This document shows positions 30,411 to 32,758 of a stretch of DNA of 64,000 bases, one piece after another. The notes under the pieces are model-generated. The model worked only from the letters and a program-made list of their open reading frames with translations, ran no database searches and had not been told where the DNA came from. Every line of letters starts with the position of its first letter. Within the stretch, counting starts at the first letter, position 1. Source of the stretch: Natranaeroarchaeum aerophilus (GTDB lineage Archaea; Halobacteriota; Halobacteria; Halobacteriales; Natronoarchaeaceae); the NCBI RefSeq assembly GCF_023638055.1, contig NZ_JAKRVY010000007.1, positions 62,001 to 126,000 on the forward strand, read 5' to 3'. The position numbers and the translations under genes are program-made.

Positions 30411-30442
30411 GGAGGTCGACTACGATTCGACTCGAAAACCAG

Positions 30443-30516
30443 TCCGCCCTCCCCGATTTGAACGGGGGACAAGTCGATCTACAGTCGACTGCTCTACCAG
30501 TCTGAGCTAAGGGCGG
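30443..30516 (-). tRNA. tRNA-Tyr (GTA anticodon)
   Basis: A 74-nt tRNA on the minus strand with full cloverleaf: acceptor CCGCCCT/AGGGCGG, D stem GCTC/GAGC, anticodon stem GTCGA/TCGAC around CTGTAGA (anticodon GTA), T stem CCCCG/CGGGG around TTCAAAT, and discriminator A. The C1-G72 first pair is a tyrosine identity feature of archaea. No intron, no encoded CCA. Upstream TATA-like elements are near 30547-30562. The region 30010-30440 downstream of it holds only the relic copies. Confidence 0.95.
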
Positions 30517-30651: not shown

Positions 30652-31170
30652 ATGAGCGGTATGAGCAAGATCACGTTCCGGGCGGACGACGACCTCGTCG
30701 AGGAGATCGAGGCGTTCGACGCCTCGAAAAGCGAGGTGCTACGCGAGGCGCTACGGAGCTACATCGAGGATCACGAGCCAGCAGACAGTGGCACGTCGCC
30801 GGATTCGGACTCGCTGGACGCGCTGGTCGCCGACCGTGTCGACGAGTTGATCGACCGACGGCTGGACGAGCGGTTGGGCCAGCAGTCCACGCCACAGGAC
30901 GTCACAGTGAACGTCTCTATCGAGGACGAGCGCGCGCAATCAGAGCGTAAGACAGAGTCATCAGGGGACGTGACCATCGAACCTGACGACAGGACGTGCA
31001 CTCAGTGCGGCGAGGGGGTGGGCGACGAGCACGTCTACTGCCCGAACTGTGGGGAGAAGGCGTCCAAACGTTCGTTCTGTGAATGTGGTGACGAGCTCCG
31101 TTCGGACTGGGCGTTCTGTCCAGGCTGTGGGCGTCGGACACCGGCTGCAGACGTGCTAGATCCTCGGTAG
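30652..31170 (+). CDS. cdrL: CdrL-like ribbon-helix-helix/zinc-ribbon regulator
   Basis: A 172-residue transcription factor: N-terminal ribbon-helix-helix (SKITFRADDDLVEEIEAFDA... residues 5-42), a helical acidic linker (43-100), then four cysteine pairs forming two zinc ribbons (CTQC 116-119, CPNC 130-133, CEC 143-145, CPGC 156-159). In haloarchaea this long RHH protein lies upstream of cdrS-ftsZ2 and controls them; the order here is the same. The ATG at 30652 lies about 26 nt after a TATA-like gttgataag (30625-30633). It is divergent from tRNA-Tyr. The name comes from synteny plus domain order. Confidence 0.85.
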   Translation: MSGMSKITFRADDDLVEEIEAFDASKSEVLREALRSYIEDHEPADSGTSPDSDSLDALVADRVDELIDRRLDERLGQQSTPQDVTVNVSIEDERAQSERKTESSGDVTIEPDDRTCTQCGEGVGDEHVYCPNCGEKASKRSFCECGDELRSDWAFCPGCGRRTPAADVLDPR

Positions 31171-31205
31171 AGGCTCACACACTGCCGAAGGCGGCGTTTA
31201 CTTCT

Positions 31206-31236
31206 TTGTGTCACAACCGCCGTTACATTTATTATG
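31206..31236 (+). promoter_or_regulatory. cdrS-ftsZ2 promoter with upstream palindrome
   Basis: TTGTG-T-CACAA (31206-31216) is a perfect palindrome directly before an AT-rich TATA region (acatttattatgt, 31224-31236). Transcription would start near 31258, giving a leader of about 125 nt before cdrS, unusual among largely leaderless neighbours. Confidence 0.5.
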
Positions 31237-31259
31237 TATGCCCGTGAGGTTCCAGTCGC

Positions 31260-31368
31260 GTAAGACGGTTGTCTTACACAAAGGGGTGGAACCCCTCACT
31301 CCCGGCGTTGTCGGGTGGCGAGGGCTGTAAGACAGACGAGCGGTATCCACGAGAGACAGCCGTCTTAC
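31260..31368. promoter_or_regulatory. Palindromic GTAAGAC/GTCTTAC cluster in the cdrS leader
   Basis: GTAAGAC-ggtt-GTCTTAC (31260-31277) is a perfect 7-bp inverted repeat at the predicted transcription start. A second pair of the same arms lies at 31327-31333 and 31362-31368. Between them AGGGGT-gga-ACCCCT (31282-31296) can form another hairpin. The arms may be operator half-sites for CdrL or CdrS, or RNA structure. Confidence 0.5.
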
Positions 31369-31385
31369 ACAGGGGAATACAACAT

Positions 31386-31562
31386 ATGGAGCGTGTGACA
31401 CTGCGAATTCCGAAACAGCAGATCGATGCGGTCGAACAGATGGTCGACACCGGCCAGTACCCGAACCGTAGCGAGGCGATTCGGGCGGCTGTCCGGGAGA
31501 TGGTCGACGAACAACAGGAGACCTCCCAGAACTCCAGTAAACGAACCTGGGCGAAGGTGTAG
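31386..31562 (+). CDS. cdrS: CdrS ribbon-helix-helix cell-division regulator
   Basis: A 58-residue ribbon-helix-helix protein: beta strand [10 protein letters not shown], helix 1 [12 protein letters not shown] and helix 2 [16 protein letters not shown], ending in a polar tail. In Halobacterium and Haloferax the same protein is co-transcribed with ftsZ2 and activates it; here only 2 nt separate the two genes. Synteny plus length support the name. Its leader holds repeated palindromic half-sites, suggesting autoregulation. Confidence 0.9.
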
Positions 31563-31564
31563 TT

Positions 31565-32758
31565 ATGCAGGATATTGTTCAGGATGCGCTTGAAAACGCC
31601 GAAGAGGAGAAACGGGAGATGGACGCTGCGGCAGACGACGACGAGTTTGGCGATCCTCGGATCGTGATCGTCGGTGCTGGCGGTGCCGGGAACAACACGG
31701 TCAATCGGCTGTACAATATCGGCGTCGAAGGTGCCGAGACCATTGCGATCAACACCGACAAACAGCACCTCAAGATGATCGAGGCCGACACGAAGATCCT
31801 CGTCGGCAAGTCCCTGACAAACGGACTCGGAGCAGGTGGCGACCCATCGATGGGCGAGCGAGCTACCGAGATGGCCCAGGGAACGGTCAAGGAAGTACTG
31901 GGTAACGCCGATCTCGTGTTCGTCACCGCAGGGATGGGTGGCGGGACCGGGACCGGAGCAGCACCGGTCGTCTCGAAGATCGCCAAAGAACAGGGTGCGA
32001 TCGTCGTCGGTATGGTCTCGACGCCGTTCAACGTCGAGCGCGCACGGACGGTCAAGGCCGAGGAGGGGCTGGAGAAACTGCGCGACGAGGCCGATTCGAT
32101 CATCGTACTCGACAACAACCGTCTGCTGGAGTACGTGCCAAATCTGCCGATCGGCAAGGCCTTCTCGGTGATGGACCAGATCATCGCCGAGACGGTCAAG
32201 GGAATCTCGGAAACGATCACCCAGCCGAGTCTGATCAATCTGGACTACGCCGATATGACGACCATCATGAACCAGGGTGGCGTCGCAGTGATGCTCGTCG
32301 GCGAGACACAGGACAAGAACAAGACAGAAGAAGTAGTCAAGGACGCGATGAACCATCCACTGCTTGATGTCGACTACCGCGGCGCGAGCGGCGGGCTGGT
32401 TCACATTACTGGCGGCCCCGACCTCACACTGAAGGAGGCCGAGGGCATCGCGGACAATATTACCGAGCGACTGGAAGCCAGCGCGAACGTCATCTGGGGG
32501 GCCCGAATCCAGGAGGAGTACAAGGGCAAGGTCCGCGTGATGGCGATCATGACCGGCGTCCAGAGCGCGCAGGTGCTTGGTCCGACGACGCAAAAGCAGG
32601 CCAACAAGTCCCGCGAGAGTCTCCAGGGCGCGAACGAAGCATCCTTTGACGCCAGCCAGAATCTCGACGACTCGGGAAGTCAGGGTAACTTTGGCGCTCA
32701 GAGCGACGGCGGAAAGAATACCGTCGAGAAGCAAAACGGCCTCGACGTCATCCGGTAG
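31565..32758 (+). CDS. ftsZ2: Cell division protein FtsZ2
   Basis: A 397-residue tubulin-like GTPase. An acidic N-terminal extension starting [15 protein letters not shown] is typical of the FtsZ2 group and not of FtsZ1. The GTP-binding loop is GGGTGTG (125-131), the first glycine-rich loop is [14 protein letters not shown] (36-49), and the catalytic T7 loop is NLDYAD (225-230). The C-terminal 60 residues are polar and variable. FtsZ2 drives constriction in haloarchaea. It follows cdrS after 2 nt, with a GGTG Shine-Dalgarno-like element overlapping the cdrS end. Confidence 0.95.

Follow-up and report, generated by a model that had tools for sequence, protein, structure and literature searches.

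A predicted operator array and a probable structured leader share their heptamers upstream of cdrS-ftsZ2 in Halobacteria

Four copies of the heptamer GTAAGAC or its complement GTCTTAC (hereafter s1 to s4) lie between the predicted transcription start site and the cdrS gene. On balance, they are probably part of an operator array for the CdrL/CdrS regulators, the heptamers of which have been re-used as the arms of a class-wide structured leader. Taken separately, a DNA operator array is a likely prediction and a nested leader fold, with helices s1:s4 and s2:s3, is probable; which protein binds, whether control is positive or negative, and whatever the fold does for the RNA are inferences. The broader proposition, that a single seven-letter word has been selected in two molecules, as operator DNA (also within coding sequence) and as the arms of a leader RNA, is possible, with a chance that we would put slightly below even.

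The window, i.e. the whole 64-kb stretch of DNA analysed, belongs to a haloarchaeal genome (G000) in which cdrL, cdrS and ftsZ2 are consecutive and in this order (Table 1). Pfam searches with CdrL yielded DZR (E 1.1e-7), CdrL_M (PF24252; E 1.3e-5, 25.8 bits for a cut-off of 27) and RHH_1 (E 0.004, 17.5 bits, below the cut-off of 20.5). The cdrS gene was detected in 387 of 391 Halobacteria genomes, and cdrL adjoins it in 122 of the 127 loci longer than 2 kb. A tRNA-Tyr gene (anticodon GTA; window positions 30442-30516, - strand) adjoins cdrL. The 180 cdrS loci used for comparison were reduced to 160 non-redundant loci and then to 102 similarity clusters, a step that removes the overlap between the genome sets used. 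Two loci of Haloferacaceae archaeon XH8 (L041 and L045, CP132292.1) are near-identical and lie close to both ends of a chromosome record that is complete, corresponding either to a true duplication or to an assembly overlap.

Table 1. Features of the cdrL-cdrS-ftsZ2 region, in window coordinates
Feature	Position	Strand	Description
cdrL	30652..31170	+	N-terminal ribbon-helix-helix region, linker, C-terminal double zinc ribbon
cdrL-internal heptamer GTAAGAC	30947..30953	+	Linker codons R-K-T = CGT AAG ACA
TTGTGTCACAA	31206..31216	.	Upstream-operator position, about -52 from s1
TATA box TTTATTAT	31228..31235	+	Starts 32-34 nt before the start of s1 in 154/160 leaders
Predicted transcription start	31258	+	R of the YRC signature before s1; inference
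s1 GTAAGAC	31260..31266	+	Identical in 159/160 leaders
Helix P1 5' arm	31260..31270	+	Predicted to pair with 31358-31368, 11 pairs including one G-U
Helix P2 5' arm	31270..31278	+	Predicted to pair with 31326-31334
s2 GTCTTAC	31271..31277	+	Identical in 152/160 leaders
Hairpin AGGGGT-GGA-ACCCCT	31282..31296	+	Arms 31282-31287/31291-31296; variable P3 region
Second P3 hairpin (CCCGGCGTTGTCGGG)	31301..31315	+	From folds
Helix P2 3' arm	31326..31334	+	Predicted partner of 31270-31278
s3 GTAAGAC	31327..31333	+	At most 1 mismatch in 121/160 leaders, exact in 97
Helix P1 3' arm	31358..31368	+	Predicted partner of 31260-31270
s4 GTCTTAC	31362..31368	+	At most 1 mismatch in 153/160 leaders
GGGGAA before start codon	31372..31377	+	Shine-Dalgarno-like, putative; GGGRA near ATG in 94/102 clusters
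cdrS	31386..31562	+	58-aa ribbon-helix-helix protein; Pfam RHH_1 E 2.3e-8
ftsZ2	31565..32758	+	Pfam Tubulin E 2e-44, FtsZ_C E 6.6e-36

The inverted pair s1-s2 had been singled out, as GTAAGAC-ggtt-GTCTTAC, in the first-pass annotation of this DNA; its coordinates were confirmed and the dyad proved to be conserved class-wide. With a spacer of 3-7 nt, it was found in 374 of the 391 Halobacteria genomes, versus 8 of 391 for a reversed control pattern, and was present once per genome, except in G239 and G363 (two each), each of which carries an additional s1-s2-like dyad. The spacer, GGTT in the window, is 4 nt long in 122 of the 160 leaders. Nine leaders were inspected from the 17 genomes lacking the exact dyad, and in all of them the spacer was shortened, a heptamer was altered, or both changes were present; in every leader retrieved, the dyad, exact or changed, precedes cdrS, and sequence alone sufficed to identify each leader. 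Of 147 genomes sampled from the phylum, the dyad was present in 23 of 25 Halobacteria and in none of the 122 others. The number of exact heptamers in the window is unremarkable overall (8 observed, 4.7 expected); their clustering is non-random, with five of the eight falling within positions 30947-31368, and GTAAGAC-N(0-8)-GTCTTAC occurs a single time in the G000 genome.

The first transcribed base was placed according to the usual archaeal TATA-to-start spacing. The conserved distance between the TATA box and s1, together with the bases Y(-3)R(-2)C(-1) that directly precede s1 in most clusters, leads to a predicted RNA start two bases before s1, such that the leader should extend from position 31258 to position 31385. 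The resulting length of 128 nt agrees with the approximately 125 nt initially predicted from the TATA box. The legend of a figure on Haloferax volcanii describes cdrS as drawn with a 5' UTR (PMC8406309), and 72% of the protein-coding transcripts of this species are reported to be leaderless (PMC4983044).

At the DNA level, heptamers are also present outside the predicted transcript. A copy with no more than one mismatch was found upstream of the TATA box (-70 to -45 from s1) in 91 of the 102 clusters, with 141 matches versus 30 in dinucleotide shuffles, and as many as 58 copies share a single position (versus at most 4 in shuffles). The commonest form is GTCTTAC at -52, and the distance to s2 is 63 bp in 40 of 68 cases, corresponding to six helical turns at 10.5 bp, and 64 bp in a further 17. 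The window's own locus (L001) is one of the 11 clusters without an upstream heptamer: TTGTGTCACAA, which had been noted before the TATA box and is indeed present there, is specific to this genus and is not conserved, the relatives carrying variants of GTCTTAC or GTAAGAC at this position. A further copy lies within cdrL. In 71 CdrL ORFs, taken from the clusters with loci longer than 2 kb, the Arg-Lys-Thr of the linker was found 45 times; 40 of these are encoded by CGTAAGACR, and four of the others differ only by AAA. CGT accounts for 17% of the Arg codons of CdrL. The binomial probability of the bias is about 2e-32, and the copy suggests a regulatory word dictating codons within a gene.

These upstream and coding copies, the near-invariance of the heptamers (159/160 for s1), the restriction of both the dyad and CdrL to the class, and the single CdrL ChIP site reported in Halobacterium salinarum (PMC7439475) would all be accommodated by a pure DNA operator array of CdrL or of a CdrL-CdrS complex, with RNA pairing a mere by-product of inverted copies. 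We nonetheless consider this reading rather improbable. Operators alone predict no matching of flanking bases across the leader, yet such matching was observed, for s1:s4 and s2:s3 alone. Moreover, in the genus Halonotius (one genus), s3 of Halonotius pteroides (L060) has become GTGGGGC, in which the heptamer is lost and pairing with s2 in P2 is maintained by means of G-U pairs. The s3 of L180 is similar.

The heptamers are nearly invariant and their own pairing is therefore uninformative, whereas their flanks vary and were subjected to permutation (2000 permutations; 96 clusters with s4 for s1:s4, and 73 clusters with s4 and with s3 at no more than one mismatch for s2:s3). The bases after s1 covary with those before s4, and the bases after s2 with those before s3. 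For s1:s4, the lengths of the flank pairing runs exceeded those of all 2000 permutations at every length, as did the total numbers of pairs up to length 4; for the totals, 158 of the 2000 shuffles attained the observed value at length 6, and 129 did so at length 8. For s2:s3, runs and totals were unmatched from length 3 onwards, and those at length 2 were matched by 1 and 2 of the 2000. No flank covariation was detected for s1:s2, s3:s4 or two crossed controls in the same number of permutations. At the ninth pair of P1, for example, GC was found in 57, AT in 10 and GT in 10 of the 96 clusters. As the s3 sequence itself was used to find s3, leaders that have lost it fall outside the scope of the s2:s3 test.

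Flanks were also swapped between nearest relatives only (3, 5 or 10 neighbours). Support for s2:s3 was significant throughout (p≤0.0013), and s1:s4 remained significant on the run measure (p≤0.03); for three neighbours, the total number of pairs in P1 failed (p 0.23 and 0.21). The controls were flat, with a lowest p of 0.05. With a pair counter, none of 500 shuffles reached the observed value for three of five measures, the other two being reached by 43 and 72 of 500. The covariation term of RNAalifold was either unfavourable (+16.5) or about zero (-0.03, with P1 alone predicted); alignment A1 comprised 68 of the 73 leaders, owing to length limits. This term being of no help, the nested fold is argued from the flank permutations, from the swaps between nearest relatives and from folding stability. 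Comparison with related genomes, as proposed in the first-pass annotation, revealed both conserved dyads and compensatory pairing in the flanks of s1:s4 and s2:s3. The RNA element envisaged there is supported by covariation and folding stability, through helices other than the local s1:s2 hairpin; similarly, the second, distant GTAAGAC/GTCTTAC pair is present (31327 and 31362), but covariation favours s1:s4 and s2:s3 rather than s3:s4.

The leaders are unusually stable as a whole, with a mean z of -3.53, versus -0.23 for control stretches taken upstream (102 clusters each). The nested fold lies no more than 3 kcal/mol above the minimum in 67 of 73 leaders, and outperforms the local hairpins in 66 of 73. 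The leader of the window has a z of -3.9; its minimum-energy fold, which lengthens P1 at the expense of P2, is more stable than the nested fold by 8.5 kcal/mol. Many relatives have a stable P3 region, with a mean z of -1.8 over 76 clusters. The AGGGGT/ACCCCT hairpin of this region, described in the initial annotation, is present in the window but lies in a variable region and is not kept in relatives; it was rejected as a conserved element. An intrinsic terminator or attenuator was also rejected, as the sequence shows no T run after s4.

The local hairpins s1:s2 and s3:s4, the flanks of which do not covary, were rejected as a conserved structure. They might, however, alternate with the nested fold in a bistable RNA switch. 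Alternation would account for the identity of the four arms, and either state is able to form: in 19 of 73 leaders, local pairing comes within 3 kcal/mol of the minimum. The minimum of L126 and L127 is the local form, with two local hairpins and a middle one. We regard such a switch as very unlikely, given the flat covariation of s1:s2 and s3:s4 and a median preference of 5 kcal/mol for the nested state.

The preferred nested fold is not universal, with no match to s3 at up to one mismatch in 39 of the 160 leaders and none to s4 in seven. Four deep-branching leaders (L139-L142, from G022, G382, G217 and G285) have kept s1-s2, with an altered s2 in one case. In these leaders, s3 and s4 are replaced by a hairpin, read by eye (e.g. 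GCGTGTGAC..GTCACGCG), the loop of which, GGGTCA, can pair with a downstream TGACCC (in L139, GGATCC with GGATCC). From its letters, which are changed but matching, this loop pairing looks like a pseudoknot. These variants indicate that the fold is not fixed across the whole class.

CdrL is the first candidate reader of the array, because the region upstream of cdrS-ftsZ2 was its only reproducible site in ChIP-seq of Hbt. salinarum and because it is confined to Halobacteria, being described as encoded in all sequenced members (PMC7439475). The dyad matches the rarity of the CdrL sites, with one per genome in all but two of the 374. Deletion of cdrL has been reported to be accompanied by second-site mutations. 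CdrL was not detected in three near-complete Halobacteria assemblies (G002, G008 and G093), and a fourth genome, G136, gave a weak partial match only. The leaders of these four genomes (L127, L126, L116 and L128, respectively) retain s1, s2 and s4 and lack the upstream heptamer, and this retention without a detectable CdrL renders an operator for CdrL alone doubtful. The operator option of the first-pass annotation, CdrL/CdrS, gains support from the upstream and cdrL heptamers and from the CdrL ChIP site, but hardly in a CdrL-only form.

Arms retained without CdrL, together with covariation and stability, would also be expected of a leader that acts only as RNA, with the heptamers before the promoter and in cdrL having decayed or being coincidental. 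To this reading we assign the smallest chance of all those weighed: the upstream copies lie outside the leader and, in two thirds of the clusters, keep a constant spacing to the promoter, and the coding copy, also outside the leader, dictates codon choice.

A serious but still unlikely candidate is autoregulation by CdrS, in which the leader heptamers would be CdrS operators, variants of GTCWGAC, and CdrL would play no part at s1-s2. At least one GTCWGAC was found in the ftsZ1 promoters of 21 of 31 genomes (L184 and L187-L216), directly before the BRE/TATA, and these sites are often paired as GTCWGAC-N4-GTCWGAC, with the 11-bp pitch of s1-s2. The heptamer differs from that of the leader by one base, and this similarity and equal pitch favour autoregulation, as does the persistence of s1, s2 and s4 where CdrL was not detected and the upstream heptamer is missing. 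However, the upstream heptamer is also missing outside the CdrL-less genomes (L001, L018, L119 and others). In the ribbon-helix-helix fold, the DNA-contacting strand is N-terminal. The CdrS used for ChIP in Hfx. volcanii carried an N-terminal FLAG (PMC8406309), which may for that reason have affected the result. Autoregulation also has against it that the cdrS promoter is absent from the list of 18 sites given in that paper and that CdrL ChIP marks the region in Hbt. salinarum (PMC7439475). CdrS is bound at the ftsZ1 promoter in Hfx. volcanii (PMC8406309), and GTCWGAC at ftsZ1, a motif inferred from promoter sequences, is likely to be a CdrS operator; it could be extended to a genome-wide prediction of the CdrS regulon. 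The ftsZ1 promoter of G000 (G000:C9, near 11252) has a GTAAGAC 16 bases before the ATG. The s1-s2 dyad could be read by CdrS or by both proteins together, and CdrL and CdrS are regarded jointly as the likely readers.

In the mechanism that we propose for the combined operator array and structured leader, YGTAAGACR on DNA would be the binding unit of the CdrL/CdrS ribbon-helix-helix regulators. One group of heptamers immediately precedes the BRE and TATA box, and the s1-s2 dyad lies on the predicted start site, six turns further on, with additional single heptamers in the leader and within cdrL. Proteins bound at both groups would flank the promoter, lying on the same side of the helix, and initiation might thereby be limited or timed. 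The transcript would begin two bases before s1, with s1 pairing with s4 and s2 with s3; the paired arms would close a junction around the variable hairpins, beyond which a short open stretch would carry GGGRA and the start codon. Such a fold could cover or protect the 5' end and set the yield of CdrS and FtsZ2 per message. At its boldest, the idea would have the ribbon-helix-helix protein that binds the DNA read the RNA helices as well, which is purely speculative.

The mRNA and ribosome occupancy of cdrS-ftsZ2 diverge during growth in Hbt. salinarum, a mismatch explained by its authors, in the text concerned, by a processing site inside ftsZ2 (PMC8303175); the leader fold is another possible cause. 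CdrS and CdrL are among the few known archaeal division regulators, and exact letters can now be proposed for their missing operator. The candidate structured leader would extend over most of a class whose model species has mostly leaderless transcripts. Control of archaeal cell division may then operate at two levels; if the same word is indeed selected in both molecules, the DNA- and RNA-level controls share their letters and would be bound to evolve together.

Neither the heptamers nor the leader fold, nor any CdrL motif, was found described in the searched text of openly licensed papers (including PMC7439475, PMC8406309, PMC8303175, PMC7617429, PMC12186497 and PMC11834397), and no leader named ftsZ-DE appeared among the matches listed. 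Among the closest precedents is the CdrL-bound region of Hbt. salinarum (PMC7439475), which has the same place in the operon, is a single site and is limited to Halobacteria; unlike the present report, the main text of that paper gives no sequence motif, and a leader RNA or heptamer is not mentioned in the parts consulted. The CdrS sites of Hfx. volcanii, such as that at -50 of ftsZ1, also combine a ribbon-helix-helix regulator with a symmetric motif (Fig. 4C of PMC8406309), but the heptamer inferred for them is GTCWGAC, they lie mostly upstream of promoters, and the 18 listed in that paper do not include the cdrS promoter. The structured mRNA leaders of Rfam resemble the cdrS leader in their length and in having nested helices before a regulated gene; they differ from it in that the arms of the cdrS leader double as operator words and its loops lack the conservation expected of a ligand pocket. 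A known Rfam family was rejected for the cdrS leader, with no covariance-model match up to E 1, as was a riboswitch, the s2-s3 segment being mostly variable in the consensus, without a conserved unpaired core. Finally, SegB of the Sulfolobales recognises TCTAGA-S-TCTAGA at 46 sites genome-wide, in a text that makes no mention of an RNA leader (PMC12284271); at the segAB promoter, as proposed here for cdrS-ftsZ2, an archaeal ribbon-helix-helix cell-cycle protein acts on palindromic sites in its own operon.
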